IMG/VR virus record: IMGVR_UViG_3300022665_001184
Span: 1-21,987 of that record
Strand: one strand, 5' to 3'
Length of the DNA stretch: 21,987 nucleotides
From: a virus
The notes beneath the pieces were generated by a model. That model saw only the letters and a list, made by a program, of their open reading frames with translations. It did not search any database and was not told the origin of the DNA. Positions 1-21,987 of this stretch are shown in pieces (within the stretch, counting starts at the first letter, position 1; the number at the start of each line of letters is the position of its first letter). Position numbers and translations under genes: made by a program.

Positions 1-420
1 CTTCTGCTCTTTCGCTAATCCCTCTGCAATATTCGCCTTTCCCGACATAACTATCGGCATTTGCACGGCAGCATGCATTAGCTCAAGATCTATTTGCAGA
101 ACGGTGTCGAACTTCTCACCAATATCCCCAAAATCTATAACCTTCATATCAACAGTATCGTCTGTGACCCATTCATGCTTATAATTCATCCATTCAAGAT
201 CGCTACTAAACGCTTCGAGATCAGGAGTACTTGGAATAATTCCTTTTTCAAATTTCCCAACCTTTACATGAATGGGAGAGTTCGCCTTCCTCTTCATTAA
301 CAAATGAAGATTTTTTAAATTACCCAAAAACCCATCTATGAGTGGTATGGCCGGGTAGATTATTCCTACACCATATGGATCATCACCTATTTCATTAAAT
401 TTGAGATGTGCTATTTGGAA
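1..420 (-). pseudogene. Portal protein, internal fragment cut by an inversion
   Basis: The reverse strand is open in one frame from about 420 down to position 1 and continues off the window. It encodes about 140 residues, including FNEIGDDPYGVGIIYPAIPL near the beginning and MHAAVQMPIVMSGKANIAEG near the end. These resemble conserved blocks of phage portal proteins: the GDDPYG block, and the block with a GK.N..EGLA signature. Portal proteins form the dodecameric ring through which DNA enters the capsid. No start codon fits: upstream in this frame there is only a stop at 433-435. The next gene, on the opposite strand, is the usual neighbour of a portal and seems to begin with a portal C-terminus. 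I infer that the portal gene was broken between 406 and 432 and that this piece lies inverted. The family call rests on motif recognition only. Confidence 0.72.
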
Positions 421-1167
421 CGGTTTAAAGTGTTAACAGATCTTTTAAAAGTCCCATTCATTAGTATTGGGTTGAGTAAGCAATTACAATTAGAAGTCGG
501 TCGTTTGCTCAAAATACCTGAGGAGGAAATTGAGAGTGATGAGGATCAACGGCAAGATGAGGAAGAAGAGCAGACTCAACCAAAGGTTCCAGGTACACAA
601 GCAATTGAAGAACGATTCGACTACACACTACGAGAATGGCTTGGCTTCGATTTCCAAGAATATAAGAATGGGATACAACGATTCCTAACCAAACACAAAT
701 TCAGACTCCTTATTGCAAAGAATAATGTAGATCTTCAAGCTGGGAAGCTTAATGCATTTCAAGTTGATCGATTACGGTTTGTATTGCAAAGAGGGTTTGA
801 AGAAGAACAAACGATCAGGGAGATAGCGAGTGAGATTAATAAAAAGGTTAAACCTCCTGATCTATTCCAGGTTAAGGATGGTGAGATCAGGAAGAATAAG
901 GATGGATCTAACAGGCTTGTTGTCAGCTCGGAGTTGAGAGCTATTAATATGGCTCGTACACAAATAACTTTTGTTGCTAATCAAGGCGCTTTAATAAATT
1001 ATAGAGATGCAGGAATTGAGGAAGTTAGTTGGGTTGCATCTTTTGGACCACGAACATGCCCGATTTGCGAAGCGTTGAATGGGAAGATAATGAATGCTAG
1101 GAATCCAGAAGAAGTTCCTCCGGCACATTCTATGTGTCGTTGCACATTAATTCCGGTGATAAAATGA
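406..1167 (+). CDS. Head morphogenesis protein (Mu F / SPP1 gp7-like), possibly with portal C-terminus
   Basis: Minor head protein of 253 residues as drawn. The C-terminus carries the family hallmark: RTCPICEALNGK, then PPAHSMCRC, a likely metal-binding Cys/His cluster (C-x2-C, H-x3-C-x-C). The middle part, about residues 65-190, is helical and charged as in SPP1 gp7-like proteins, which bind the portal and are packaged with DNA. Residues 5-55 (ERFKVLTDLLKVPFISIGLS onward) look like the end of a portal protein, followed by an acidic linker (DEDQRQDEEEEQ) at about 45-57. The ATG at 406 has no ribosome binding site and lies in the junction zone with an inverted portal fragment, so it is probably not the native start. 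The frame may be the end of a portal fused to this protein, or the native start may lie further in. The stop overlaps the next ATG (ATGA). Confidence 0.8.
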   Translation: MCYLERFKVLTDLLKVPFISIGLSKQLQLEVGRLLKIPEEEIESDEDQRQDEEEEQTQPKVPGTQAIEERFDYTLREWLGFDFQEYKNGIQRFLTKHKFRLLIAKNNVDLQAGKLNAFQVDRLRFVLQRGFEEEQTIREIASEINKKVKPPDLFQVKDGEIRKNKDGSNRLVVSSELRAINMARTQITFVANQGALINYRDAGIEEVSWVASFGPRTCPICEALNGKIMNARNPEEVPPAHSMCRCTLIPVIK

Positions 1168-1997: not shown

Positions 1998-2290
1998 TGG
2001 GTGAGATAATAATTGATGGGACAGGAAATTCGTATCCTTTAAAAGTTAATGCTGATGGCAGCATCAACACCAATTCTGCAATGGCTCGAATACATATAGG
2101 TAGTGGAACTGCCACATACCGTGCATCTGCAGAGCCAGGCGCAAATACCGCTAGCGGTGTATGGCAGATGTCTCGAACAAATAGAGAAAGTTTTCAGGGA
2201 ATAGCTAAAGCAGCTGTTACAACATGGGCTTCTGGCACTGGATCATTTGACAAGATTGTTGATGCTTTATTCACATCACCTTATTTATAA
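1997..2290 (+). CDS. Unknown small structural-type protein (97 aa)
   Basis: 97 residues, rich in Gly, Ala, Ser and Thr. It begins MGEIIIDGTGNSYPLKVNADG, a short beta-hairpin-like segment of a kind seen at the start of many virion proteins, then has a polar middle (ARIHIGSGTATYRASAEPG) and a helical-looking end (FDKIVDALFTSPYL). No signal peptide. It is linked by one-base overlaps (TAATG) to both the gene before it and the giant fibre-like gene after it, which suggests that the three are made together. It could be an adaptor for the fibre; I cannot name a family. Confidence 0.6.
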   Translation: MGEIIIDGTGNSYPLKVNADGSINTNSAMARIHIGSGTATYRASAEPGANTASGVWQMSRTNRESFQGIAKAAVTTWASGTGSFDKIVDALFTSPYL

Positions 2291-5200
2291 TGAAAAAAAA
2301 AAATATAATAATTTCAATAATTATATTAGTTTTGATATTATCAATAGCGTATGCACAAGTAGAATTTACGGTGTCTGATCGTTTAGTGCTTGAAGTGTTT
2401 AATCCATTCTCATTCCAAGACGATCTTATCAGATCAGCAAATTTTTCTGGAGAGAACATCACTGCTGACAATTTTATTGGTAATGGTAGTCCGCTTACTG
2501 GAATATCCGGATTTGTCAATAGCACTGCTTGGAACAGGACTGGATCAAATGTCATTCTCGCTAACCAAAATGATAATGTGGGAATAGGTACTGCATCCCC
2601 CACGGCGCCATTAGACGTGAATGGTGATATGGTATTGTCTGGTGGCAGCCAAAATTATAATTTCACTAATCGCCTTAACGCTTTGGTTATACAAGGTCAA
2701 TCGTTAAACACAGAGGCTTTGGTGGAATTATTTACAGGTTCTGGTGATGGTACTGATGAATTAGAGTTACGAGTTTACGCTGTTGGAAAATCAGATAACA
2801 TCAACGATAGTGAGTTCTTTCAGTTTGGATATGCTCCTATTCCTAAGACATTTGATATTGAGACAAAGGCTCTTGGTACAGGTAAAGCTCGTGACATTCA
2901 AATAATAGATAATGGCACTACTTGGATGAGATTTCTTGCTGGTGCTGGGGTAAGCATTTCTCGCACGTTAAATGTGACTAATGTTAACATAAGCAGCGAT
3001 CTTAATGTGATTGGAAATGTTAATATAACATCAGATTTAATCAGTCCAACTATCTATGATGTTTCTTCTCAAGGATTGGTTTTAGCAATGAATTTCAATA
3101 ATGGAAGTATTACAGGTAGTACTGTTTTAGATAGCTCTGGGGAGAATAATCATGGAACTAATAACGGAGCAACACACAATGCTACAGACGGGTTTGATAA
3201 TTTATTGAGTGGTGCTTTTGATTTTGATGGAGTGGATGATTATATAGAAATACTTGATAGTGGTAGTTTGGATATTACGGATGCGATAACTATAGTTGCA
3301 TGGATTAATGCTGATACATTTGGTTCGTTTGAACGTATAGTAGATAAGAAGGTTAATGAATGGACTTTTGTTTTAACAGACACAAGCCCTTTTACAGGTT
3401 TAGAATTTTGGATTAACGGTGTTGTTCGAGCAACTACTTCAACTGGTGAACTAACAGCAGACACATGGCATTTTGTTGTAGCCACTTATGATAAAGATTT
3501 GGGAGGAACAGAAGAGGTTAAAATATATATTGATGGTGTTAGTAAAGCTACAGGGGATTTTTCTACTGCTATAGGTACTAACGCTGATTCTGTAGATATT
3601 GGAAGAGAAACTACAGGTGAAGCAGGTAAGTATTTCGACGGAACAATAGACGAAGTATCTGTATGGAATAGGGCATTATCATCAGATGAAGTTAAAAGGC
3701 TTTATTTACAGAGAGTCGAGTTTTATAATTCTTATGTTTCTCAAAGAGACATTTTTGTTAACGCCTCTGGAAGTGTTGGAATAGGAACATCAAGTCCATC
3801 AGCAAAGCTCCATATAGATTCTTCAACAACCAATGAAGTGGCAAGATTCGTCTCAACAGATGCATTAGCACATTTGAGAGTAGAAGATAATTCTGGTCAT
3901 GTATTATACAGTAGTTCTGGGGATGATTCAAGAATATATACTGGTGATGATGATAACACTCAAAAATTAACAATAAAAGCAACTTCTGGGAATGTTGGAA
4001 TAGGAACGACAACACCAAACTATCTTCTTGAGATTGCAGATACTTCAGGAGAAGGTCTATCACTAAATGTTTCTGAAGTGCTATTTGTGAATGGGAGTAG
4101 TAACAGTGTCGGAATAGGAACGGCTAGTCCAATAGGAAGATTTACGATCAAACAAGGTTCAGATAATTTTCTTGAGGGGTTAACAATAGTTGATTCAGGA
4201 AGCACAGACAGATGGGATTTGGCTCTTGCAGGTAATGATTTGTTCTTTGGATTTAATAGTGCTACAAAAGTTTTCTTTGGAGATGATGGAAAGGTAGGTA
4301 TAGGAACTACAGTGCCAGAGGCTACTTTGGATGTGGAATCATCAGGGACAAACAGTCAAAGTATTATCAGAGGAAGATCCGATAACGGTGTTAGGTATTT
4401 ACTTGCTACGGACTTGTTAGATGATGGTTACATGTTCTTATATGATTCTGGCGAGATAGCTCAGACGGCTTTCAGAACTAATAGTAATCCTTCTTACATA
4501 GCAGGTGGTGGTAGTTTTGGAATAGGAACAAGCACGCCAGCTTATAAATTACAAATCCAAAACTCATCAGAAGCACTGAATGTTTCAAACTTTTTATTCG
4601 TGAATGGAAGTGGAGTAGGCATAGGCACTGCACGTCCTCAAGTAGAACTTCATGTTATAGGAGATGTTAACATTACTGGAACAGATAATAACATGCAACT
4701 TGGTTGTGGTAATATTACTGGAGAGGATACTGAGCTTTGTACTCTTTCACAACAATTTGGTGATGCTACTGCTAATATCACTACTTTGAATTTGACGAGT
4801 CAGGGTCAGTTTGATGCTAATGCTGTTTATATTGGTTTGGCAACTGCTAACATTTCTGCTAATGCTATTGTAGTAGGCGATGCAACTTCTAACATATCTA
4901 ATAGAATGAATGTGAGCGGTGGCAATTTTAATGGTGCTGTTAAAATAGATGGTTCTGCTGATGTGGAACAATTTATAGTGCAGGGTCATTCTACTCAAAG
5001 TGCAAACTTGTTTGTTGCTGAAGATTCAGCAGGGACAAATATGCTTTCAGTTAATAATGCAGGAAACACTTTTATTAGAGGAACATTGGATATAAGAGGT
5101 AGTCTTTCAGATGGTGCAGGGAATGTTATAATAGCAGATAGTTTAGATATAACTGGAACAAACTCGGACTTAACACTAAATCAGGATGGAACAGGAGCAA

Positions 5201-6882
5201 GAAGCAATAACCTAATACTAATAGATGATACCAACACGTGGTGGACAAGAATAAGCGGAAACCAATACCATATTAGAGATAATACGGCAGGGACAGAGCC
5301 TTTCAGGATTGATGAAGGAGCATCAACAGGAACATTATCATTACAAGCAGACGGTGATGTGACTATGACACAAGGGAATGTTGGCATAGGCACTTCAAGT
5401 CCAGGTACGCAATTAGAATTGGAATCGAATAATCCACAAATTCTTTTAGATGATAATACTGCTGATAATATTTATATTGGTAATGTTAATGCAGATTTTG
5501 AAATTCGTGATACTGGAAACTCCAATGTTTTGTTCGTTATTGAACAAGCAGGAGACGTGGGGATAGGCACAACAGATCCCATTCAGTTACTTCATATCGA
5601 GGATGCTGCTGGATCAGATACAGAGTTATTAATTCGAGCAGGCACAGCGGTAGCTTCTGTTGGAAATGATGCTATCTTAACTTTAAATGCCATCGCTAAT
5701 AATGCGGCACAAGACCAAGTACGATTCAGAGCTATTCACACAGGTGGTGAGAATGTTAATTTTGTTATTGAGCAAGATACAAGTGCGGGTGCTTTGACAG
5801 AGGTGTTAAGAATAGATACAGATGGGGATGTTGGCATAGGCACTTCAAGTCCATCTGAAGTATTAGAAGTTGAAAAGAATCAAAATGATTTCACGGTATT
5901 GAGAGTTGAAAACACCAATACTGGCACAGGTGGAAGAACTGGAGTGACAATTGTAAGTGGTAGTGTTAGTACTTTTATTGAATCTGTCCAAAGTAGCAAT
6001 ACAGTTGTAAGTGGTTGGGCTGATAGTACTGTACTTACTTCAGACGCAGATATGTATATTGGTCCTTTTGGTGGAACAGATAAAATATTTTTTCAAACGG
6101 GTAGTGTAGCTGGAACAAGAATGACAATTTTGGATACGGGAAATGTCGGAATTGGTACTTTAAGCCCTCCTTACGAGTTGACTGTTGGTGATGGTCAAAC
6201 TTTTCTTCAGGACGGCACTGGTGCTTTTCCTTTAATAATACACAGGAACGCTAACAGTGCCAATTTTGGTGTTGTTATACAATTTAGTTTAAATAATAGT
6301 AATAATGCGCTTCAAGAATACGCTGAGTTACTAGGTATTCTAAGACTAAGTACTGCAGGAAGTGAGGATGGTGATTTAGTTATAAGAGGTATGAACGATG
6401 GCACAATGAGATCCATTGCTAACTTCACTGGTGATGATGAAAGTTTATACATGAGCGGTAATATCATTCTTGGTGGTGGTCGCATAGACATTTGTGACGG
6501 AATTTGCGATCCCGATGCCGCAACTGGTGATGGTGACTTGTACGTTGAGGGTAATTTGGAAGTGGATGGTTCAATATGCATAGAAGGAAGCACAGGAGGA
6601 CCTTGCACTGAAAGCTTAGGAAATCTTCAAGTAGAAGATGGCAGTATTTGTGTAGGAAACGCTGGTTGTGATCCTGGAACTGACGGGACGATACTCATAG
6701 AAGGAGATTTCACTAGCTCTGACACTGGAGACTTAGGATGGAGTGTGCAAACAGGAGCGAACACTGCTTGCACTGCCACTTGCACTAATGCTTGTGTGTT
6801 CGGTTTTGATGATGGAGTGGATACTGTTGTTAGTTGTTCATCAACAGCAGCTGACACTTGCGTTTGCGCAGGAGCGAGTTAA
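2290..6882 (+). CDS. Giant secreted fibre/adhesin with LamG domain and GIGT repeats
   Basis: 1530 residues. A hydrophobic signal peptide (about 1-23, ending IAYAQ) is followed by many N-x-S/T sequons. Residues ~258-475 form a LamG/concanavalin-like jelly roll (ending in FDGTIDEVSVWNRALSSDEV), a fold that typically binds sugars. Eleven copies of the motif (V/F)GIGT..P....L.V lie near residues 97, 496, 569, 607, 669, 744, 776, 1032, 1090, 1180 and 1286. This repeat is common in phage tail fibres and large surface adhesins and usually marks trimeric beta-rich shafts. The C-terminus has no S74-type chaperone motif that I can see; instead it is Cys-rich and ends TACTATCTNACVFGFDDG, then SSTAADTCVCAG. 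A signal peptide is odd for a virion part and points to export to the host surface. It could be a receptor-binding fibre assembled outside the cell, or a virus-encoded host surface adhesin. Confidence 0.85.
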   Translation: MKKKNIIISIIILVLILSIAYAQVEFTVSDRLVLEVFNPFSFQDDLIRSANFSGENITADNFIGNGSPLTGISGFVNSTAWNRTGSNVILANQNDNVGIGTASPTAPLDVNGDMVLSGGSQNYNFTNRLNALVIQGQSLNTEALVELFTGSGDGTDELELRVYAVGKSDNINDSEFFQFGYAPIPKTFDIETKALGTGKARDIQIIDNGTTWMRFLAGAGVSISRTLNVTNVNISSDLNVIGNVNITSDLISPTIYDVSSQGLVLAMNFNNGSITGSTVLDSSGENNHGTNNGATHNATDGFDNLLSGAFDFDGVDDYIEILDSGSLDITDAITIVAWINADTFGSFERIVDKKVNEWTFVLTDTSPFTGLEFWINGVVRATTSTGELTADTWHFVVATYDKDLGGTEEVKIYIDGVSKATGDFSTAIGTNADSVDIGRETTGEAGKYFDGTIDEVSVWNRALSSDEVKRLYLQRVEFYNSYVSQRDIFVNASGSVGIGTSSPSAKLHIDSSTTNEVARFVSTDALAHLRVEDNSGHVLYSSSGDDSRIYTGDDDNTQKLTIKATSGNVGIGTTTPNYLLEIADTSGEGLSLNVSEVLFVNGSSNSVGIGTASPIGRFTIKQGSDNFLEGLTIVDSGSTDRWDLALAGNDLFFGFNSATKVFFGDDGKVGIGTTVPEATLDVESSGTNSQSIIRGRSDNGVRYLLATDLLDDGYMFLYDSGEIAQTAFRTNSNPSYIAGGGSFGIGTSTPAYKLQIQNSSEALNVSNFLFVNGSGVGIGTARPQVELHVIGDVNITGTDNNMQLGCGNITGEDTELCTLSQQFGDATANITTLNLTSQGQFDANAVYIGLATANISANAIVVGDATSNISNRMNVSGGNFNGAVKIDGSADVEQFIVQGHSTQSANLFVAEDSAGTNMLSVNNAGNTFIRGTLDIRGSLSDGAGNVIIADSLDITGTNSDLTLNQDGTGARSNNLILIDDTNTWWTRISGNQYHIRDNTAGTEPFRIDEGASTGTLSLQADGDVTMTQGNVGIGTSSPGTQLELESNNPQILLDDNTADNIYIGNVNADFEIRDTGNSNVLFVIEQAGDVGIGTTDPIQLLHIEDAAGSDTELLIRAGTAVASVGNDAILTLNAIANNAAQDQVRFRAIHTGGENVNFVIEQDTSAGALTEVLRIDTDGDVGIGTSSPSEVLEVEKNQNDFTVLRVENTNTGTGGRTGVTIVSGSVSTFIESVQSSNTVVSGWADSTVLTSDADMYIGPFGGTDKIFFQTGSVAGTRMTILDTGNVGIGTLSPPYELTVGDGQTFLQDGTGAFPLIIHRNANSANFGVVIQFSLNNSNNALQEYAELLGILRLSTAGSEDGDLVIRGMNDGTMRSIANFTGDDESLYMSGNIILGGGRIDICDGICDPDAATGDGDLYVEGNLEVDGSICIEGSTGGPCTESLGNLQVEDGSICVGNAGCDPGTDGTILIEGDFTSSDTGDLGWSVQTGANTACTATCTNACVFGFDDGVDTVVSCSSTAADTCVCAGAS
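5378..5403. repeat. 26-bp exact repeat inside fibre gene, copy 1
   Basis: A 26-base stretch coding for the GIGT motif is identical to 5828-5853, 450 bases downstream. Other GIGT motif copies in the gene differ at silent positions, so this pair is the most recent duplication or conversion within the fibre shaft. Confidence 0.8.
5828..5853. repeat. 26-bp exact repeat inside fibre gene, copy 2
   Basis: Second copy of the 26-base GIGT-coding stretch at 5378-5403, in the same reading phase (offset 450 bases = 150 codons). Recombination between the two copies would remove or add 150 residues without shifting frame. Confidence 0.8.
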
Positions 6883-7499: not shown

Positions 7500-7759
7500 A
7501 AGATTATGCAAAACTAGCTAAGACAAATAACGGCTTGAAAGGAGATGAAACGACAAGACAATTATGTTTCATACTATTAGGAAAGATTGATGATAATGCT
7601 AAGAGAGATGAGGATTATCATCATGAATTGAGAAAAGAGCTTATTAAAGCAAATGAGGGTGTTGTGAAGAATAAAACTGGTATTAAATATTTAAGATGGA
7701 TGTTTGGGATCTCGATAACACTTCTTCTTGCTATAATAGGATATTTTTTGAATATGTAA
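7496..7759 (+). CDS. Small tail-anchored membrane protein, XhlA/holin-like
   Basis: 87 residues from the ATG at 7496, which overlaps the preceding stop by four bases; an in-frame GTG at 7484 is a less likely start. The first ~60 residues are charged and helical (DDNAKRDEDYHHELRKELIK), followed by one C-terminal membrane helix (WMFGISITLLLAIIGYFLNM). This layout, a soluble coiled coil followed by a short basic loop and a terminal membrane helix, resembles the XhlA class of holin-associated proteins. It could also be a membrane anchor for the fibre complex encoded just before it. No lysis enzyme is seen in the window, so a lysis role is unproven. Its stop codon touches the 52-bp promoter repeat. 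Confidence 0.6.
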   Translation: MKDYAKLAKTNNGLKGDETTRQLCFILLGKIDDNAKRDEDYHHELRKELIKANEGVVKNKTGIKYLRWMFGISITLLLAIIGYFLNM

Positions 7760-7809
7760 TAATTATATAATTAAAATATATGTATTTAAATACATTAAAA
7801 ATATATTTT
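7758..7809. repeat. 52-bp AT-rich palindromic repeat, copy 1
   Basis: These 52 bases are identical to 12686-12737. The repeat begins within the stop codon of the upstream gene and contains two perfect palindromes, AATTATATAATT and ATGTATTTAAATACAT, plus inverted arms AAAATATAT and ATATATTTT. The central palindrome contains the TATA box of the protease operon. It is likely a promoter with an operator-like dyad, and may also help end the upstream transcript. Confidence 0.85.
7785..7792 (+). promoter_or_regulatory. Archaeal-type TATA box of the head operon (leaderless)
   Basis: TTTAAATA lies at the centre of a 16-bp perfect palindrome. Its midpoint is about 27-28 nt before the ATG at 7816, the usual archaeal distance from TATA box to transcription start. 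Transcription should therefore start at or next to the start codon, giving a leaderless mRNA. This agrees with the lack of a Shine-Dalgarno site before 7816. Confidence 0.65.
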
Positions 7810-12318: not shown

Positions 12319-12690
12319 GTGGCAAAAGATTTTTCAATTGAAATACGAGGAATACCTGAAGTTCAAGCTTTTTTAAAAAATTCTTCTAAACAAAAGCAAC
12401 GACGAGTTAATAAAACTATTCATAGGGAAGGATTTAGGGTAGAGGCTGAGGTTAAGCAAAGTATTGCTGGTCAAAGATCCGAGCCTAGAAGTGTTGATAC
12501 TGGAAGATTTTTAAATAGTGTGCAAACGGATAATAGTAAATATTTTCAGTCAAGAATTTTCTCAAATGTTCGTTACGCAATTCACTTAGAAAAGGGTACA
12601 AGTAGAATAAATCCCAGGCGACATTTTAAAAATAGTGCAAATAGGAAGAGGGTAGAGATCGTTAATAATATTTCAAGAGCGCTACAATAA
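12319..12690 (+). CDS. HK97 gp10-like neck/tail completion protein
   Basis: 123 residues from the GTG at 12319, which has AGGTGA at 12308-12313 five bases upstream; an in-frame GTG at 12310 has no such site and would overlap the previous gene. The family pattern is clear: a basic helical N-terminal part (NSSKQKQRRVNKTIHREGFR), the conserved VDTGRFLNSV block near residue 65, then YAIHLEKGTSRINPRRHF near the C-terminus. HK97 gp10-like proteins act at the head-tail interface or in tail completion. Its stop lies within the second 52-bp repeat, so the protease-to-gp10 unit is exactly bracketed by the two repeat copies. Confidence 0.8.
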   Translation: MAKDFSIEIRGIPEVQAFLKNSSKQKQRRVNKTIHREGFRVEAEVKQSIAGQRSEPRSVDTGRFLNSVQTDNSKYFQSRIFSNVRYAIHLEKGTSRINPRRHFKNSANRKRVEIVNNISRALQ

Positions 12691-12737
12691 TTATATAATT
12701 AAAATATATGTATTTAAATACATTAAAAATATATTTT
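12686..12737. repeat. 52-bp AT-rich palindromic repeat, copy 2
   Basis: All 52 bases match 7758-7809 (offset 4928). As in copy 1, the repeat begins at the end of the upstream gene, here two bases before its TAA. The two copies bracket the complete protease-to-gp10 gene set. Identity over an intergenic stretch while the flanks differ suggests recent duplication, or selection for the whole element as a regulatory site. Confidence 0.85.
12713..12720 (+). promoter_or_regulatory. TATA box in repeat copy 2, upstream of tail-terminator gene
   Basis: The same TTTAAATA in the same 16-bp palindrome as at 7785. Here the next start codon, 12787, is about 70 bases away, so transcription from this box would begin near 12743 and leave a leader of about 44 nt. 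The leader contains two similar blocks, CAAGCGAGA and CAAGCGAGG, and GAGG near 12777-12780 could serve as ribosome binding site. Confidence 0.55.
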
Positions 12738-12786: not shown

Positions 12787-13248
12787 ATGGTAACAGCAAT
12801 CAGCGGACCAACATTCATAAGTGATACTCTCATATTCACTAGAGATGTTCTTAGAGATAATATAACAGATCCTCTCAGTCGTAATGGTTCCAATTTTGTC
12901 TTCACATCATATCCTCGTGATGATTTTAAATTTCAATATCCAATAATAACTGTTAAAGAGGACGGATTTAGTCAAATACAACGATTAGGGATGCAAAGCG
13001 AAGCGGCAGCAATGAGAATGCCTATAGAAGTGAGAGTGTGGGCTCGTAATGAGAAAGAAAAAGATACTATAAGCCAAGATGTGTTTAATTTTCTTAAAAA
13101 AAATCAATTTGGGACAGGATCAATATCAACAGATGTAGAACTTCATGATTTTACTCTAGTGAATTCAAACAATGTTGATGAAGATGGGAGTGCGGGGATT
13201 AAGAGTAAAGTAATGGAGTATTCATATTTGTATATTAATCAAGCGTGA
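12787..13248 (+). CDS. Tail terminator / tail completion protein
   Basis: 153 residues. After an N-terminal helix region (SDTLIFTRDVLRDNITDPLS) the sequence has the layout of tail-terminator proteins: an aromatic basic segment (FVFTSYPRDDFKFQYPIITV), then the strand-helix unit MRMPIEVRVWARNEKEKDTI followed by SQDVFNFLKK, and a final strand VMEYSYLYINQA. Tail terminators stop tail-tube growth and join tail to head. Gene order (after an HK97 gp10-like gene and, in the restored order, just before the tail-tube gene) agrees. A leader with a repeated CAAGCGAG block precedes it. Confidence 0.65.
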   Translation: MVTAISGPTFISDTLIFTRDVLRDNITDPLSRNGSNFVFTSYPRDDFKFQYPIITVKEDGFSQIQRLGMQSEAAAMRMPIEVRVWARNEKEKDTISQDVFNFLKKNQFGTGSISTDVELHDFTLVNSNNVDEDGSAGIKSKVMEYSYLYINQA

Positions 13249-13250
13249 AA

Positions 13251-13718
13251 ATGGCAAATAATTGTATATGTGGATGTGGAAAGATTACCAAATATGGACA
13301 ATACTCTAGAGGACATTCACCAAATAGTAGAAATGGATTTAATAAACATAATAATAGAAATTCAAAAAAAAGAATAGAAACATCAATAAAACGATATGGA
13401 AAAGTTAAAGGACGACCAAAAGGTATGAAACATACAGATGAAGCAAAAAAGCTTATGTCCAATAAAATAAAAGAATATTATAAACACAATAGACATCCTA
13501 ATTATCAACAAATAAAAATTCTATGTAAGTATTGTAAAAAAGAATTTGTGGGATATAAAACAAGGATTACATGTTCAAATTTATGTAATTCAAAACAAAA
13601 TTGGAGTGATAAAAGTTATATAGAAAAAAATAGAAAATCTCATTTAGGAATTATTCCTTGGAATAAAGGAATGAAAGGAATGGGAATACAAGTTAATTGG
13701 CGGTCCAAAAAATTCTAA
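13251..13718 (+). pseudogene. NUMOD3 homing-type endonuclease, N-terminal half, broken near 13705
   Basis: The frame begins at ATG 13251, two bases after the tail-terminator stop. It shows an N-terminal zinc-finger-like CICGCGKITKYGQYSRGH, a NUMOD3-type DNA-binding motif (GRPKGMKHTDEAKKLMSNKI), a second cysteine cluster (ILCKYCKKEFV then ITCSNLC), and a second NUMOD3-like motif LGIIPWNKGMKGMG. No HNH or GIY-YIG nuclease core is present. The last ~15 codons overlap, on the other strand, the end of the large glycoprotein gene, and the protein stops just after QVNWR, where related phage endonucleases continue into an HNH domain. A matching HNH C-terminal part lies at 21551-21739 on the minus strand. 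I infer that the gene is split by an inversion junction near 13700-13710. Confidence 0.7.
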
Positions 13719-16700
13719 ATGAGCAGCATCAAAATAACATTCACTACAAATTGATGTAAAATAGAAGTATGGCAATAAGAATCTATCACTGCATCCACTC
13801 AAATCAATAAATTGCCATATACTCCTACTATTATCCTTATCTGGATTTATTGTAATATTAGACAATATTCTTTCATATGTTTCATTATAAACAAATCCAT
13901 CAACTTTAGCTGTTGTATTGCTAAAAGTCACATTAAGACAGGAGTCTATCGTCTCATTAGACTTAACATATATATCTAGTGGCTCATCATATCCTAAATT
14001 ACTAATATTAAATATTGGCGTAGAGTTTGTTTGCCTGACAGGAGTTATATTTTTGCTATTATTAGTTCGTGCAAGAACATCATACACTTGTAGTATGGGT
14101 AGACTAATATTATATGGCGAAAATTTCACAAGTATCTTATGTATTGCTGAAGTGCTAGCATCATGAGCTGTTGCAGTGTAATTCAAACTTCCCAAAAAAT
14201 CAAATTGAATATCTGACACATTAAAAGTGTCTCCATCAAATGTATAGTTTATTTCACATTGGGTACATGTTTCGAATCGTGATTTGTTTAACACTACAGG
14301 ATTAACACTTGCATTATTAACAAAATTATTGATTTGCACTTGTCCAGCATCTCCCACAGTTATTTTGATTGGAACAAGACCAATTATGTCAGGTTCAGAA
14401 ATATTAACCTTCTTTGGAGAATTTGAACCATCTAAAACATCAGGGAAATTCCAGTCAATAATCCCATCACTATTATAATCAATCGAAATATTTGATGCGC
14501 TTGCATTAACTATATTAATACTCACACTTCGAACAATTGGGCTGCTTGTGTTTACTGTTGAGTTAAGAAAAGCTTTCCAACATATATTGCTTCCAACAGT
14601 ATCAAAAATATGAAGAATACCTGGATCTACCTTTTCAAAAGTTCGATTAGTAATATTACACACACTACTCATATAAAATGTAGCATCAGTGTCAGGAGGC
14701 TCATGCCAACTAGCATCAAGAGTTGCTCTAATAATATTATCTGGTATATTAATCATTGTTCCTGTAATATTTCCTTCAGGATCATATCTACCATTTGTGC
14801 TTCTGTTCAACATTGCACCTCCCCACTTGATTTCCTCAAGGATTAAGGTAGCGTTTGACGGAAGCCCGGTGCCACCACCATCACCACAAGTGTGGGTTGC
14901 ATCGAGAAAGAACCTGAATCGTAAGCGTTGAGTAAAATCAAGACTCGATAAATCTTTCACACCTTCTGTCGTGCCATTAATAAAAACTTCCCATGATGTA
15001 CTATCATTTCTAATTAAGGTGAGGTTATGACCAGCACGTTCACTTGTGAATCCTGCTGTATTTTTATGATCCTTAAAATAATTCTTCAACAAAACAGTGC
15101 TCGTCCCGTCGTATACTTGAATGTTAATATTACTGAACCTCGCTTTTCCTGAGACTGAACAAGAACCTGCATCCTGCTGCCAATGATACAATAATTGGAT
15201 AATGCTCGTGTTATGAAAGTTTGCAATTGCTGAAGATTCAAGAAACTCAAATGATTGAGGACCAACGTTACTATGATGAGCAGATGCTACAAGATGAAGA
15301 TTACCAGACTTATAAGACAAGTCACCAAATCCTGGCGAAGAACCAGCTATTTTATTCATACTCCACAATGTATTATTATTATCGAAATCGTCAAAAACTC
15401 CAGGAGCTGTAACATTATCAGTAAATGTCCAATTATGAGTGAATGTATTGTTGAATTTTTCATTATGATCAAGTTCATTTCCAGCATCTACATCAAATCC
15501 ACTTACATCAAATGTTAAATTTTGTGTTGAACCTGTAGTGTTAGTGAATATAATTTGTGATCCAGCCTTTGCGTAAGTTAAATTAACTGTAAATTTATAA
15601 ATAGAATTATGAATGAAATCATTTTGAATAACATGAAAATCACTGAAATTGCCTCTAAAATATATAGTTTCATTTCCATAACTCACATTTAAATTCCTCA
15701 CTGTTCCATTAGCTGTCATATTAAATTGCACTGCCTCCATTTCAGTGCGATTATCCATAACTACAGTTATTAGGGTTGTATTTCGTAAATTTTCTGTAGC
15801 TCCAACTGTAGTGTTTGCTCGTCTCAATGTTGTAATGTTAAAATCAAATATTGTGGATCCCTCATTACACGATACATTAATTCCAAGTCCAGGAGCATCA
15901 ATATCTATGCAAACCTCTCCTTGACTAACTGCTTGAAGCCGTGCAATGCTATTCAATTCGTATTTTCTTGAATCGTTTAAAAGATTTAAAAATAAAGTTA
16001 GACCAGTCTCGTTATAATTCACATTCAAACATCCACTCATACTAACATTATTTTCAGTAGCATCTGAATTTATGCAAGATGCATAGATACATTGTGTTGT
16101 ATCAACAGTGAGGTTGGGGAGTAAAGTAAAAGAATGGCTTGTAACCTCAGTTGTAGATAATTTATATTCCGAATTATTAGCTACCATTGTTGTGTAGTTT
16201 TCATCACTTCTTGAAGTGCTGCAATTTGCATTTTCATTAGTCACAAATGTTCCTGTTAGTAAATTTGAAGATACATTTATTGTATCTCCTACATTCCATA
16301 CTGACGTATTTCCAATAGTATTATTAGATGTTACATTCCAAGTTGAATTAGTAGGTGGTGTAAGATCAGGTAGATCTACTGGTCCTCCTGTAATGTTGAT
16401 AGTAAGGTCATCCCAGAAGTTAGGACCTCCTGCAACATTGGTGTCAGTGTCAAGCCTGATTGTATTAATACACTTGTCAATAGGGCGTGAGTCGTTAAAA
16501 ATTAAGCTATCATTAATATATCCTGTAATATTTGTACCATTAGTTCCTCGTACAATAAAATGCATCTTAGTCCAACCACTGTCTGACCTAGTGTTATTAG
16601 TAATATTAAAAGATCCTACGGTTGCAAATGTATAATTCTTTTCTCCAGCTTGACTAGCAGTATTATTATCAATTCCCAATCTAGCTATTGAAACAGTATC

Positions 16701-17054
16701 ATGGTAAAGAGCAATCGTAGCTCTTGACCCAGCAGTGTTATTAGAAGAATATATTTCAATAGTGAGATTAAAACAGTCTCCAAGTAGATAGTCAACTCTT
16801 CCACCACCAGCACTCCCTCCTTTTATTCCAAGAGTTCCTGATTGCGCTTGTATATTAGAGTAATTGAAGAGGTTGTTCTGATTTGTAGTATTCCATCCAC
16901 CTACAAGGAGATGTTCATTATTGCTTCCAGAGGTTCCGTCAATAGTCGTGTCAGCTGAATCAGTAATTGTTCTTAAAACCTCTACATCTTCTAACTGGTC
17001 AGCATAGACAAATAGTATGAATAATAAAAATACTAGTAAAATTATTTTTTTCAT
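13644..17054 (-). CDS. Large secreted glycoprotein (LamG-like N-domain), tail-tip or surface protein
   Basis: 1136 residues from the ATG at 17054, which shares a base with the upstream stop (TGATG); the longer start at 17075 lies inside the upstream gene and would spoil the signal peptide MKKIILLVFLLFILFVYADQ. Residues ~20-220 resemble a concanavalin/LamG-type domain (YLLGDCFNLTIEIYSSNNTA and the end NFWDDLTINITGG). The rest is a chain of beta-rich segments with several dozen N-x-S/T sequons and scattered Cys pairs. No C-terminal membrane anchor or GIGT repeat is seen. Position after tape measure and distal-tail genes suggests the receptor-binding protein of the tail tip, yet the signal peptide implies export. 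The last ~20 residues (after FFGPP) are antisense to the broken endonuclease gene, so the native C-terminus is probably lost. Confidence 0.75.
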   Translation of the reverse strand: MKKIILLVFLLFILFVYADQLEDVEVLRTITDSADTTIDGTSGSNNEHLLVGGWNTTNQNNLFNYSNIQAQSGTLGIKGGSAGGGRVDYLLGDCFNLTIEIYSSNNTAGSRATIALYHDTVSIARLGIDNNTASQAGEKNYTFATVGSFNITNNTRSDSGWTKMHFIVRGTNGTNITGYINDSLIFNDSRPIDKCINTIRLDTDTNVAGGPNFWDDLTINITGGPVDLPDLTPPTNSTWNVTSNNTIGNTSVWNVGDTINVSSNLLTGTFVTNENANCSTSRSDENYTTMVANNSEYKLSTTEVTSHSFTLLPNLTVDTTQCIYASCINSDATENNVSMSGCLNVNYNETGLTLFLNLLNDSRKYELNSIARLQAVSQGEVCIDIDAPGLGINVSCNEGSTIFDFNITTLRRANTTVGATENLRNTTLITVVMDNRTEMEAVQFNMTANGTVRNLNVSYGNETIYFRGNFSDFHVIQNDFIHNSIYKFTVNLTYAKAGSQIIFTNTTGSTQNLTFDVSGFDVDAGNELDHNEKFNNTFTHNWTFTDNVTAPGVFDDFDNNNTLWSMNKIAGSSPGFGDLSYKSGNLHLVASAHHSNVGPQSFEFLESSAIANFHNTSIIQLLYHWQQDAGSCSVSGKARFSNINIQVYDGTSTVLLKNYFKDHKNTAGFTSERAGHNLTLIRNDSTSWEVFINGTTEGVKDLSSLDFTQRLRFRFFLDATHTCGDGGGTGLPSNATLILEEIKWGGAMLNRSTNGRYDPEGNITGTMINIPDNIIRATLDASWHEPPDTDATFYMSSVCNITNRTFEKVDPGILHIFDTVGSNICWKAFLNSTVNTSSPIVRSVSINIVNASASNISIDYNSDGIIDWNFPDVLDGSNSPKKVNISEPDIIGLVPIKITVGDAGQVQINNFVNNASVNPVVLNKSRFETCTQCEINYTFDGDTFNVSDIQFDFLGSLNYTATAHDASTSAIHKILVKFSPYNISLPILQVYDVLARTNNSKNITPVRQTNSTPIFNISNLGYDEPLDIYVKSNETIDSCLNVTFSNTTAKVDGFVYNETYERILSNITINPDKDNSRSIWQFIDLSGCSDRFLLPYFYFTSICSECYFDAAHLEFFGPPINLYSHSFHSFIPRNNS

Positions 17055-17869
17055 CAAATTCCAACCTCTGTACACACTCCTCTTTCAACCTCATGAACTC
17101 TACACTCCCCATATTCTTCATAATTCCTATCTCCTATAGGAATTGACCATTTATACAATTTTCCTCCAACAATGTTAGAGTTCTCATAAATAATATTATT
17201 CACTTCAATTCCTATCCTTTTTCCATTATAATATTGAATATCAAAATAATCAACAAATCTTCTAGTAATATTTTTTGCCTCAACACAAGTGTTATTAGCA
17301 TAACAAAACCTTTCTACTGTTCTTACAACACTCTCCTTATAAATAGGAACTCTTCTACTTCTATTCTGATAAACTATTTTGTAGCCAAAAAATACAGGAT
17401 CAAACTCTTCTCCAGTTATCTTACCACCCCATTTAATAGTGTCAGTAGGATTATGTTTAAAAATAACAATCTTATATTGATTCTTCTTGCCCTTAATAAA
17501 CTTTTCAATATAACTATATCTGGAGGTTAGTGGAGTGGTCCAATCAAATTCTCTCCATCCAACTCCACAAGGATACTTTTCTCTATCTAATCTTTTTTTA
17601 GAAGAATATCTACCATCTTTTTTACAATAATAATACTCTTTAACATCTGGTTCAAAAGACAACTTCACCGCATTTTTATTATAAATATACCAAGTAGAAA
17701 TATTTTTAAGAGTTATATTGAATGGACCCTCACAAATATCGTTATAATCTCCTAAACAAAATTTATTTCCTGGAAGTTCAACATCAAAGTGTTGAGATAG
17801 AACAAACCATGTGATAAGTCCAATAATACTAACTGTTAGTCCAAGTCCTATATATTTTGTTCTAGACAT
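17054..17869 (-). CDS. Membrane-anchored extracellular protein, function unknown
   Basis: 271 residues. One N-terminal membrane helix (about residues 6-26, IGLGLTVSIIGLITWFVLSQ) is followed by an extracellular-type domain with sequons (FNITLKNIS, NNT, KNIT) and eight cysteines, starting KFCLGDYNDICEGPFNI. The C-terminal region (NGKRIGIEVNNIIYENSNIV) looks beta-rich. It overlaps by one base with both neighbours, so it is coupled to the distal-tail-like gene and to the large glycoprotein. I do not recognise a viral family; proteins with this look occur in DPANN-type archaeal genomes (recollection, not a search). It may anchor or present the glycoprotein at the cell surface. Confidence 0.7.
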   Translation of the reverse strand: MSRTKYIGLGLTVSIIGLITWFVLSQHFDVELPGNKFCLGDYNDICEGPFNITLKNISTWYIYNKNAVKLSFEPDVKEYYYCKKDGRYSSKKRLDREKYPCGVGWREFDWTTPLTSRYSYIEKFIKGKKNQYKIVIFKHNPTDTIKWGGKITGEEFDPVFFGYKIVYQNRSRRVPIYKESVVRTVERFCYANNTCVEAKNITRRFVDYFDIQYYNGKRIGIEVNNIIYENSNIVGGKLYKWSIPIGDRNYEEYGECRVHEVERGVCTEVGI

Positions 17870-18198
17870 TATATATCAACCAACATCATATCAACTGTAT
17901 AAACAGTTGATATACGATCTCGTACTACAGACAAAAATTCAACCTTCACATCTCTCGTGCCATCAAATACCCATGACACTGTATCATTATCTCTATAAAA
18001 ACCTTCTAACGTGGCTTGATCTGCATCTTTGTTCGTCCCTACCAACTCTGCTACTATTTTCCATTTTCTAGAATCTAATCCCATATTCTGCAGTTGATCA
18101 CCAGCTCGTGCTGGTATAGCATGATGAATAAGAGACTTCTTTTCAATAGGAACAATACTTGATGCATTAATAGTTACTCCACCTAATGTTACTGCCAT
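17869..18198 (-). CDS. Distal tail / baseplate-like protein
   Basis: 109 residues, with GAGGAGA ahead of the ATG and three bases separating it from the tape-measure stop. It begins MAVTLGGVTINASSIVPIEK and contains QNMGLDSRKWKIVAELVGTN, then a beta-rich end (VKVEFLSVVRDRISTVYTVD). Small proteins with an early G-x-D-R-x-W/I-x-I-x-G-type strand and a late V-x-x-V...Y-x-V strand, encoded directly after the tape measure, are usually distal-tail or baseplate-hub adaptors. This fits by position and motif style; an exact family is not claimed. Confidence 0.6.
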   Translation of the reverse strand: MAVTLGGVTINASSIVPIEKKSLIHHAIPARAGDQLQNMGLDSRKWKIVAELVGTNKDADQATLEGFYRDNDTVSWVFDGTRDVKVEFLSVVRDRISTVYTVDMMLVDI

Positions 18199-18200
18199 TA

Positions 18201-20006
18201 TTATCTCCTCGCTAATTGTTGATGAACGACATCACCAATCCTATTAGCCAATACTTCAACATCTGTATCATTATTTATTGTAGCGTTAATTTGAATATTC
18301 ACATCTCCTCCAATCAATCCTCCTATTGATGCCGGATCTTTTGTGCCAATAATAGTATCAGCACTACTAAATTTTTGTAATGGTTGTCCTGGTCGAGAGA
18401 TGAAATCGTTTAAAATAGGATTTCCTTGTGGATCTTTTGCTATTTCACCACCTACTATTTTAAATTTTCTTGTAGCACCACCTGCTCTAATGTCAGCAGT
18501 TGCTCCAGCAAATGACCTAATAACTTTTTCTCCTCCAATAAATAATTCTCTCGTAGCAGCAAATCCTTCTCCAAACCTCCTAGTGGTTTCATCAAGTTCT
18601 TTAATCCCATCAATTAATATTCTTAATGGACCTTCTGCTAGTATCTCAGCATTATCACCAAAAAGTGTTATTCCAAGTGCAGACTTTGCAAATTCATCAT
18701 TTAAAAGTTTCATAACATCAACTTCTTCATCTAGACTTTCAGTCAATGATTCAGTAGCATCTTTTACTTCAAACATTGAGTGAAGCCATTCTTTTCTTTC
18801 TCTCACACTTTCTCCCATTTGAAAATTAATATCTCTAATTCTTTCACTCATAACACGAAATTTATCTATAGGTTTTATTGTACTATCACTTAAAACGCTA
18901 AGAGTTACAATAAACTGAGCCATTCCAAGATTAATTACATCGAGTGTATTACCAAAAACTAGACGTAAACCAGCTGCTACTTCAGCAAAGGTTAAAGGTA
19001 TTAAACCTATTATTTTTGATAAAGTAATTGTTTTTTCTTGCGTATTATCAAGCGAATCACCAACATCTGCAAATAACACCTGTGCTAATTTTGTGAATCC
19101 TTTAGTCATTTCAGCTAATAAAGGTGTAAGAGTTCTAATAGCACCTGCCATTTTCTCTCCAACTAACGGGACTAATTCTTCAAATTGAGGTATTACATCA
19201 TCAAATAAAGTTTGAGCTAATTCTTTCATTGGTTCTGTAAGAAATGCTCCAAGATCCTCACCAAGCAAGGTTAATTCATCTTTCACATTAGAAAATCTTC
19301 CTACAACTGTTGTTGCAAATTTTTCAGATAAATTAGCAAATCTACCACCTTCACTACTCATATCCATAAATGCTTGAACAACAACCTCAGAACTTATTTT
19401 TCCAGCTGATGTTAATTTAAATATTTCTGCAGTTGTGACACCCAAAGTTTTTGAAAGCACATTAATTAATGGCACTCCAAGAACAGCAAAATCTCTTAAT
19501 TCTCTTCCAGTTAATTTCGCCTGCGTTTTTACCTGACCCAAATTTAATATTAATCTTTGTAATCCCTCTTGCCCCCTTCCAATTCCAGCTGCAACATCAC
19601 CCACGGCTTTTAATGTTGGAAGAACTTCTTTAGCTTCAAATCCAACAGCTAGTAATTGTCTAGCTGATAGTCTTATACCTGCAATTTCGAAAGGAGTTTT
19701 TTTAGCAAAATCAGATAATTTTGTTAAAAATTTAGTAGCTTCCTGAGCACTTCCAAGCATTGTTTCAAAAGCTATTTGATTTTGCTCAAGATCAGAAGCA
19801 AGTTTAATAGTTGTTTTTCCTAATTTTATCATAGCAATTCCTATTACTCCAACAGCTATTGCTGCTGCACTAGCAGCAACACCTAACGCTCTCATTCCTA
19901 TACCAGCTTTTTTAAATGTAGAACTAAATTTGTCAACGCCTCTAATAATAATATTAACAGTAGCACCCCCTGCTGCACCACCAACAAAAGAACTAAGACT
20001 AACCAT
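18201..20006 (-). CDS. Tape measure protein
   Basis: 601 residues, starting within the stop of the chaperone extension (TAATG), with AGGAG a few bases before. The N-terminal part holds a Gly/Ala-rich hydrophobic segment (GMRALGVAASAAAIAVGVIG). The tape-measure core follows: DLEQNQIAFETMLGSAQEAT, FAKKTPFEIAGIRLSARQLL, LTGRELRDFAVLGVPLINVL and LTSAGKISSEVVVQAFMDMS, all characteristic of siphovirus tape measures. Length times about 1.5 angstrom per residue predicts a tail near 90 nm. The protein sets tail length and is ejected with the DNA. A 115-bp piece of this gene (19184-19298) recurs at 21873-21987. Confidence 0.9.
   Translation of the reverse strand: MVSLSSFVGGAAGGATVNIIIRGVDKFSSTFKKAGIGMRALGVAASAAAIAVGVIGIAMIKLGKTTIKLASDLEQNQIAFETMLGSAQEATKFLTKLSDFAKKTPFEIAGIRLSARQLLAVGFEAKEVLPTLKAVGDVAAGIGRGQEGLQRLILNLGQVKTQAKLTGRELRDFAVLGVPLINVLSKTLGVTTAEIFKLTSAGKISSEVVVQAFMDMSSEGGRFANLSEKFATTVVGRFSNVKDELTLLGEDLGAFLTEPMKELAQTLFDDVIPQFEELVPLVGEKMAGAIRTLTPLLAEMTKGFTKLAQVLFADVGDSLDNTQEKTITLSKIIGLIPLTFAEVAAGLRLVFGNTLDVINLGMAQFIVTLSVLSDSTIKPIDKFRVMSERIRDINFQMGESVRERKEWLHSMFEVKDATESLTESLDEEVDVMKLLNDEFAKSALGITLFGDNAEILAEGPLRILIDGIKELDETTRRFGEGFAATRELFIGGEKVIRSFAGATADIRAGGATRKFKIVGGEIAKDPQGNPILNDFISRPGQPLQKFSSADTIIGTKDPASIGGLIGGDVNIQINATINNDTDVEVLANRIGDVVHQQLARR
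19184..19298 (-). repeat. 115-bp direct repeat, original copy in tape measure gene
   Basis: These bases are identical and in the same orientation as 21873-21987, which ends at the window edge. This copy lies in the intact tape measure gene. Confidence 0.9.
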
Positions 20007-20538
20007 TATCGTCTCCTACCTCTTTGCTTTTGTGTATTTCTTTTTTTTCTTCTTTCCTCAATATTATAAGCTTGTATAATCATGTTAATCTCTGGAATAG
20101 TTAATGAATTGATATTAAAAAAATTATAGCCCATCTTATGCATGAAATAGATAAATTCCCGTTCCTGAGCTACTTCGACAAAAAATCTGCGTCTTTAATA
20201 GCCTCTCTTTTTGATGAAGCCTTTTCCACTTCTTTTTGAGTTCTTCCACTACTCAATGCTATAATAGCTGTAGTTATAGCATCAATATATTTTGTCTTCA
20301 TAAAAGAAAGTTCATCATCAGAAAACTTTGGATCAATGCAACAATCTCTAATCATTTCCAAATCCTGATCTTTTGTTGTGCTACCATTTTCAGATTTAGT
20401 AATCATTTCTCTAATTTTTCCTCTGGGCAAAGGTTTCAATAAAATTTCTTGCTCTTTCAACAACTCTAATTTAATTTTTTGAGGAATTAACTCACCTTTC
20501 TCATTCCTCTCTAATAAACACTCTTCTTTATTTAGCAT
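20006..20538 (-). CDS. Tail assembly chaperone G-T fusion made by -1 frameshift
   Basis: The upstream frame (20538 to 20170) encodes the G-like part. Near its end the coding strand has the heptamer T TTT TTG (20185 down to 20179), a canonical X XXY YYZ slippery site. Slipping back one base gives GTC GAA GTA and continues for 57 codons without a stop, through VEVAQEREFIYFMHKMGYNF and IPEINMIIQAYNIEERRKKR, to a TAA that overlaps the tape-measure ATG by one base. The fusion is 177 residues. The T-like tail is helical and basic, and the arrangement equals lambda gpG/gpGT, in which the fusion binds the tape measure and helps the tube to polymerise. The -1 frame has no good start of its own, so frameshifting explains it best. 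Not tested experimentally here. Confidence 0.8.
20170..20538 (-). CDS. Tail assembly chaperone, G-like
   Basis: 122 residues encoded between the tail-tube and tape-measure genes, the invariant place for tail assembly chaperones. The sequence (KLELLKEQEILLKPLPRGKI, then REMITKSENG, and a central helix DDELSFMKTKYIDAITTAII) is short, charged and helical as expected. The stop TAG follows three codons after a slippery T TTT TTG, so this is the product of normal termination; the longer product is listed separately. A GGGGGTGG-like purine-rich stretch lies before its ATG. A 139-bp part (20252-20390) recurs inverted at 21740-21878. Confidence 0.78.
   Translation of the reverse strand: MLNKEECLLERNEKGELIPQKIKLELLKEQEILLKPLPRGKIREMITKSENGSTTKDQDLEMIRDCCIDPKFSDDELSFMKTKYIDAITTAIIALSSGRTQKEVEKASSKREAIKDADFLSK
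20179..20185 (-). promoter_or_regulatory. -1 ribosomal frameshift slippery heptamer
   Basis: The minus strand reads T TTT TTG in the frame of the chaperone gene (codons GAT TTT TTG TCG). It fits X XXY YYZ, and the frame reached by a one-base backward slip is open for 57 codons up to the tape-measure start. I did not find an obvious strong pseudoknot just downstream by eye. Confidence 0.72.
20252..20390 (-). repeat. 139-bp inverted repeat, original copy in chaperone gene
   Basis: These bases, in an intact coding context, are exactly complementary (inverted) to 21740-21878. This copy is taken as the original because it lies inside an intact gene. Confidence 0.9.
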
Positions 20539-20556
20539 AAAAAACCACCCCCTATG

Positions 20557-21549
20557 CTAAAATATGTTGTATAATTGTATTGCATCATTTACCAACACAC
20601 TAACTACCTGCGGTACTAGGGTGAATGAATATTCATTCACACCCTCATTAGGCGAAGGAATTTCTGCAGCAGTAATTTGTCCACCACTAAATGTTATAAT
20701 AGCATCACGTGTTGCTGCTCCAGCATCAATAACCAATACTCCCTGCAGTGTACTTCCACCTTTGAAGTATTGATCATACAACTCTTTTGCCCTCTCACTA
20801 GATGCGTCAGCAGTGAAATTGAAAGTGTGGTCTCTATTTGTTGGTATTGGAACTGCTGTTACTCGACTTCCATTAACATAATGAGCAGGTTCCAAATTAT
20901 TATTTATTATTAATTCAAAGCTTTTCATTTCTGATTGTGTTGTTCCAGATGGTAAGCTAAGGTGTGTATCGCTCCATAAAAACGCTCTTGTTGTTGCAGC
21001 AGTTACAGCCGTTGATGCTCCTGAAGTAAAACTTACAGATTGAGCCATATAACTTACATCAACTGTTATAATATCTCCCTGACCCGCAGATACTGTAAAT
21101 GTGTTGACAATACATCCATTAGCTGTTCTGATAAAGTTTAATCCTGTACCAGGTGCCGTTTTACTATCTTCTATCGTGAAGCTAACGAATGGGTTTAATG
21201 GTCCTGATGTTGCTGAATTTCCCTGATCGCTATTTGCTTCACTCATTGTATGAGTGAATGGTGATGGCGACCCTGCATCGACATTACTACCTAAAGCAAA
21301 TGCTAAAAATTTCCAATCTTGTGGAAAGTATGTAAATGTTCCATTAACATCACGTGGTCCGTTATTATACACATCAACATTTCTATCTCCTGCACCTAAA
21401 TATCTTGTTAATTGAATATTCTCCTCTTCTCCTAAGTCGTGGCTCTGTACTTGCCCAATCCATTGTCCTGTACCTGATGCTGTTGCATATGTACCACTCT
21501 CGTACTGAAAAAGCACCTTATTTTGATCTGAAATAAATCTGGCGCACAT
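20557..21549 (-). CDS. Major tail (tube) protein
   Basis: 330 residues. GGAGGTG (minus strand, 21563-21557) lies seven bases before the ATG, inside the end of the HNH fragment. The N-terminus (NKVLFQYESGTYATASGTGQ, then WIGQVQSHDLGEEEN) is the style of siphovirus tail-tube proteins; the middle shows alternating strands (NFIRTANGCIVNTFTVSAGQ, IITVDVSYMAQSV) and the region MKSFELIINNNLEPAHYVNG that marks the tube-fold beta hairpins. The C-terminus (VNEYSFTLVPQVVSVLVNDA) ends in a strand. Tube proteins stack as hexamers around the tape measure. Strong ribosome binding and placement before the chaperone pair support the call. Confidence 0.82.
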   Translation of the reverse strand: MCARFISDQNKVLFQYESGTYATASGTGQWIGQVQSHDLGEEENIQLTRYLGAGDRNVDVYNNGPRDVNGTFTYFPQDWKFLAFALGSNVDAGSPSPFTHTMSEANSDQGNSATSGPLNPFVSFTIEDSKTAPGTGLNFIRTANGCIVNTFTVSAGQGDIITVDVSYMAQSVSFTSGASTAVTAATTRAFLWSDTHLSLPSGTTQSEMKSFELIINNNLEPAHYVNGSRVTAVPIPTNRDHTFNFTADASSERAKELYDQYFKGGSTLQGVLVIDAGAATRDAIITFSGGQITAAEIPSPNEGVNEYSFTLVPQVVSVLVNDAIQLYNIF

Positions 21550-21550
21550 T

Positions 21551-21739
21551 TTAAAACACCTCCATATGTTTTTCTTTTCTTATTTCTTGTTCAGCTTCAA
21601 CATGACACTTTCTACAAAGAGTCATTAAATTATTTGCTGAATTATCTTTACTAATTAAAAAAGGAATTTTATGATGTACATCAACTCTTTTGCCTTCAAT
21701 AAAACAACTTTGACATGTAAGATCATCTCTTAAACGAAC
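21551..21739 (-). pseudogene. HNH endonuclease, C-terminal part, N-terminus replaced at a junction
   Basis: The native coding part starts at about VRLRDDLTCQSC and shows the HNH core with zinc cysteines: TCQSC, VDVHHKIPF (HNH histidines), NSANNLMTLC and RKCH. The fold cuts DNA with a divalent metal ion. The frame continues upstream for a few codons (to 21757), but those codons come from the inverted copy of the chaperone gene that begins at 21740, so the true N-terminus is missing. The N-terminal DNA-binding half expected for such an enzyme is found at 13251 to ~13705 on the other strand. Its stop is one base before the tail-tube ATG and its 3' end carries the tube gene's ribosome binding site. 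Confidence 0.78.
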
Positions 21740-21878
21740 AAAATGGTAGCACAACAAAAGATCAGGATTTGGAAATGATTAGAGATTGTTGCATTGATCC
21801 AAAGTTTTCTGATGATGAACTTTCTTTTATGAAGACAAAATATATTGATGCTATAACTACAGCTATTATAGCATTGAG
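21740..21878 (+). repeat. 139-bp inverted repeat, displaced copy
   Basis: Exact reverse complement of 20252-20390, so the chaperone sequence now reads on the plus strand. It breaks the HNH gene on its left and merges on its right with a tape-measure fragment, sharing six bases (ATTGAG, 21873-21878). It has no start or stop of its own and is not a functional gene. Confidence 0.9.
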
Positions 21879-21987
21879 GTATTACATCATCAAATAAAGT
21901 TTGAGCTAATTCTTTCATTGGTTCTGTAAGAAATGCTCCAAGATCCTCACCAAGCAAGGTTAATTCATCTTTCACATTAGAAAATCT
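21873..21987 (-). repeat. 115-bp direct repeat, displaced copy at the window end
   Basis: Identical to 19184-19298 and continuing to the last base, so the true length is unknown. It encodes a tape measure piece (KDELTLLGEDLGAFLTEPMK) in the minus frame, which then runs into antisense chaperone sequence. The resulting 81-residue frame is an accident of the junction. Confidence 0.9.

Follow-up and report, generated by a model that had tools for sequence, protein, structure and literature searches.

A split HNH endonuclease gene and an inverted tail block mark a probable chimera in a viral contig

The 21,987-nucleotide stretch of viral DNA analyzed here (the window) is very probably a chimeric contig of non-biological origin, arising in amplification or assembly. 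A gene for what appears to be a single HNH endonuclease lies in two pieces on opposite strands, some 8 kb from each other, and the tail genes that accompany its catalytic half are inverted relative to those of all related viruses. The real virus would have an uninterrupted HNH endonuclease gene flanked by those of the tail terminator and tail tube, all three on one strand; the contig carries at least four strand-switching misjoins, at about 415, about 13705, 21739/21740 and 21873-21878 (hereafter J1 to J4). The features around the endonuclease are as follows.

12787..13248, plus strand: tail terminator-like protein, left neighbor of the endonuclease; named by position, with 32 relatives by sequence
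13251..13709, plus strand: predicted N-terminal part of a free-standing HNH endonuclease; residues 17-81 match the L006 and L015 endonucleases
13700..13712: J2, strand switch over about 8.0 kb; the forward endonuclease gene meets the large secreted protein gene at its 3' end
13710..21739, minus strand: block inverted against all relatives; terminator-tube order in 54/54, L002 collinear
20557..21549, minus strand: tail tube protein, the predicted true right neighbor of the endonuclease; Pfam Phage_tube_2, 3.6e-17
21551..21739, minus strand: C-terminal HNH nuclease core, predicted to belong to the same endonuclease, with its 5' end cut; Pfam, PHROG and L033 matches

The open reading frame at 13251-13718 (+) encodes 155 aa and has no nuclease domain in a Pfam search, in agreement with the original prediction, which had been made by reading the sequence. 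Pfam reports none of the NUMOD3 motifs described there in this frame; they are seen in the L057 endonuclease and weakly in that of L015. Residues 17-81 of the protein match the complete endonucleases of L006 and L015 (E about 1e-13), which have a C-terminal HNH domain and, as in the window, are located in the gap between the terminator and tube genes. Genuine endonuclease sequence continues in the frame until about 13703-13709, and past approximately 13709 it runs antisense to the gene of the large secreted protein. The 21551-21739 (-) frame, whose first residues are VRLRDDLTCQSC, had been described as an HNH core without an N-terminus, and it indeed matches HNH PF01844 (2.1e-9, Pfam) and PHROG 8446 (1.7e-10) and is cut at the junction; the apparent start of the longer frame, 21551-21757, arises because the bases upstream come from the chimeric end. 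This half has 55% identity to the endonuclease of L033, also located in the terminator-tube gap.

When 13706 or 13709 is joined to 21739 on the reverse strand, the resulting frame is open. The spacing from a conserved W to the RD of the HNH core is constant in L033, L057 and L058, and a direct join (NWRS or NWRSK followed by VRLRD) falls about 3-4 residues short of it, which makes a small deletion at the join likely and fits the earlier suggestion that a few residues were lost. A WNY.DGRS stretch that is present in the same three endonucleases is absent from the window half, so the loss may also be larger than 3-4 residues, or the architecture may be different. The intact protein is predicted to have about 215-220 aa, and more with a larger loss. 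The 13251 protein had no match among viral contigs and phage records, the joined endonuclease had no relative in a set of one genome per prokaryote species, and an exact 26-mer from the HNH start identified no sister contig among the viral contigs searched, from which near-identical records may be missing. By these comparisons, 13251 to about 13706 (+) and 21551-21739 (-) are the predicted front and catalytic back of one endonuclease, as had been proposed.

We collected 55 related loci by scanning IMG/VR twice, using the tail tube and tail-terminator-like proteins as queries, and compared each window protein with them. All best hits of the window proteins (421/421) are collinear on one strand. 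The tail terminator gene precedes the tail tube gene on one strand in 54 of the 54 loci holding both genes, which fall by single linkage on tail-tube identity into 35 clusters (90% cut-off), 26 clusters (70%) or 5 clusters (50%). The tube and tape measure genes are likewise in order on one strand in 28/28 loci, and portal and MuF share a strand in all 10 relatives holding both. L002 carries the terminator, tube, chaperone, tape measure, membrane-protein homologue and large secreted protein genes on one strand. The protein at 12787..13248 (+) received no Pfam or PHROG name. Relative to this order, the window has an inverted block from about 13706 to 21739, as the gene comparison indicates and as had been predicted. 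The block contains the genes for the endonuclease core, tail tube, chaperone, tape measure and large secreted protein, along with two small genes. A tail module on the opposite strand was seen in no relative, and neither was a 13251-like protein that ends naturally near NWRSKKF; either had been named as a sign against the prediction.

L002 holds the only relative of the large secreted protein among the fetched loci, and this homologue ends in ...CRDCVKTSDWNDTNIVVIG and a stop, about 15 residues past a shared C-x-x-C (CRDC...VVIG, then the stop). In the window protein the corresponding sequence is ...CSECYFDAAHLEFFG, with the counterpart CSEC...LEFFG at J2, after which the frame continues on the antisense strand of the endonuclease. 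The large gene therefore naturally ends near 13705, at the junction or no more than a few codons from it; the original prediction had noted that its end is antisense to the endonuclease. The large secreted protein itself (13710-17075, minus strand) is very rich in N-glycosylation sequons (N-x-S/T) and has no Pfam match above cut-off. We ruled out a site-specific or repeat-mediated inversion, as the breakpoints lack inverted repeats: the longest inverted match between the breakpoint flanks is 8 nt, and the random mean is 8.6.

Both ends of the contig, which the original prediction did not mention, are also chimeric.

1..420, minus strand: portal gene piece; matches L045 portal residues 187-328, E 3.9e-40
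408..425: J1, strand switch within the portal gene; span about 0.6 kb, overlap of up to 15 nt possible
21739..21740: J3, between the endonuclease core and an inverted chaperone-gene piece; span about 1.35 kb
21740..21878, plus strand: exact 139-bp inverted copy of 20252-20390, in the chaperone gene
21873..21987, minus strand: exact 115-bp copy of 19184-19298, in the tape-measure gene
21873-21878: J4, 6-nt overlap ATTGAG between the 139-bp and 115-bp pieces; span about 1.1 kb

At the right end, the 21873-21987 piece is in turn switched in strand relative to its neighbor at 21740-21878. An overlap of at least 6 nt, as at J4, has a chance frequency of 0.0023 among random position pairs in this window; no overlap was seen at J3. 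A search of 59 related loci, 584 kb in total, gave no exact inverted repeat of at least 50 nt. After a simple inversion, 21739 would be expected to be followed by the flank downstream of the large protein gene. That flank is absent there, and no reciprocal junction was found at the far end of the block, where scrambled chaperone and tape-measure DNA follows instead. At the left end, a plus-strand portal frame starting at about 415 resumes at L045 residue 378 (E 1.6e-36) and continues into MuF, leaving about 50 portal residues missing at J1. The portal gene is essential for any tailed virus. J1 is independent of the endonuclease junction.

The window has two further features. The first is a 52-bp AT-rich sequence repeated exactly at 7758-7809 and 12686-12737; it contains the 16-nt palindrome ATGTATTTAAATACAT. 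Each copy starts at a gene's stop codon and lies ahead of the following gene. Because of this intergenic position and the stop-codon start of both copies, we set aside the idea that the repeat marks a further chimera; a role as promoter, operator or RNA-processing element is possible. In addition, a 1530-aa secreted protein is encoded at 2290-6882, between the MuF and protease genes. It has a laminin-G-like domain (3.4e-27) and numerous GIGTxxP repeats, and the place is unusual for a large adhesin-like protein.

All four contig junctions switch strand, with spans of about 0.6, 8.0, 1.35 and 1.1 kb, all below 10 kb. These inverted joins, together with the missing reciprocal breakpoint, correspond to the published signature of phi29 chimeras, and multiple displacement amplification (MDA) with phi29 is the probable agent. 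In such a reaction, a displaced 3' end would re-anneal through a few complementary bases to a nearby single strand and be extended there, giving inverted joins with intervening deletions, which the assembler would then have traced. In one single-cell MDA data set, inversion with intervening deletions accounted for 85% of 475 chimeras, and 337 of the 348 under 10 kb were inverted (PMC1855051); the window likewise has strand-switching joins below 10 kb and intervening deletions. In another data set, chimera overlaps peaked at 6 nt, with distances from 0 to over 5,000 nt (PMC4595205), compared with 6 nt at J4 and none at J3. The published chimeras come from documented amplification, whereas the window is known from its public contig sequence alone. 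Independent random template switches do not explain why the two ends of the inverted block fall almost at a single genomic position, only a few bases apart; a template end or nick at the endonuclease, or an assembly-graph branch node left there by the first chimera, could account for the shared breakpoint.

A sub-case of the artefact, which differs only in agent, is pure assembler error on unamplified reads, in which true pieces were placed in the wrong orientation. The misjoins at the contig ends with one branch-like point would suit it, as would the single breakpoint shared by the two ends of the block, which is what an assembly-graph branch would give. We nevertheless consider it unlikely: the breakpoints have no repeats, as judged from the inverted matches given above, and the exact 139- and 115-bp pieces with their 6-nt overlap resemble real chimeric molecules. 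The original prediction had offered either an artefact or a true inversion, and the first is strongly favored over the second. A genuine viral inversion with one breakpoint inside a homing endonuclease gene would explain why a single clean block is inverted against its flank, and why the break falls in the gene of a DNA-cutting enzyme. Against it stand the lack of a reciprocal junction after 21739, the portal gene that is likewise broken at the other end of the contig, the count of zero inverted relatives, and breakpoints without inverted repeats or recombination sites, although these are not obligatory. A homing endonuclease gene also normally protects its own allele from cleavage. We consider it very improbable that a real variant exists with an inverted tail module, possibly from a misrepaired endonuclease cut, and with scrambled ends from an unstable recombining population.

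A further reading is that the two endonuclease pieces are unrelated genes, each complete or decayed by itself, which we regard as quite improbable. Their best relatives do differ (L006/L015 versus L033), and no single protein among phage records covered 80% of the product of the proposed in silico join. However, both halves match endonucleases from the same gap in relatives, the frame stays open across the join, each half ends exactly at a chimeric junction, and a combination of zinc-finger-like and HNH parts occurs in L058.

With the two halves read as one gene, the endonuclease of the window is predicted to belong in the terminator-tube gap. This gap measures 25-102 nt in most loci, and 581-893 nt with HNH open reading frames in L006/L007/L009, L014, L015, L016 and L033. 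By inspection, the complete HNH endonucleases found there are of at least four sequence types. The site is thus occupied in some relatives and empty in others, and by this comparison free-standing HNH endonucleases, which are ordinary mobile genes, have inserted there repeatedly in several lineages, making the gap a candidate homing-endonuclease hotspot. The window endonuclease resembles free-standing HNH (NUMOD3/zinc-finger) homing endonucleases in its C-terminal PF01844 core and basic modular N-terminus. Those of the relatives lie between structural genes that remain unbroken; unlike them, the window gene is in two pieces because of the misjoin, and its 13251 part has no NUMOD3 by Pfam. Among isolates, the capsid protein is nearest to those of the haloviruses HFTV1, HRTV-4 and HGTV-1 (23-27% identity over 58-71% of the protein), and no bacteriophage record matched at the threshold of the halovirus matches, so an archaeal host is likely from the capsid sequence. 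These tailed archaeal haloviruses are distant, and the close relatives of the window are uncultivated IMG/VR contigs only.

Tail-gene inversion in viruses should not be deduced from this record, whose gene order and terminal sequences need correction before they enter comparative analyses. Split essential genes, exact inverted end duplicates and strand order against relatives together form a test that requires no reads and is applicable to public virus collections. The real biology that remains is modest: HNH endonucleases have inserted repeatedly into the terminator-tube gap.
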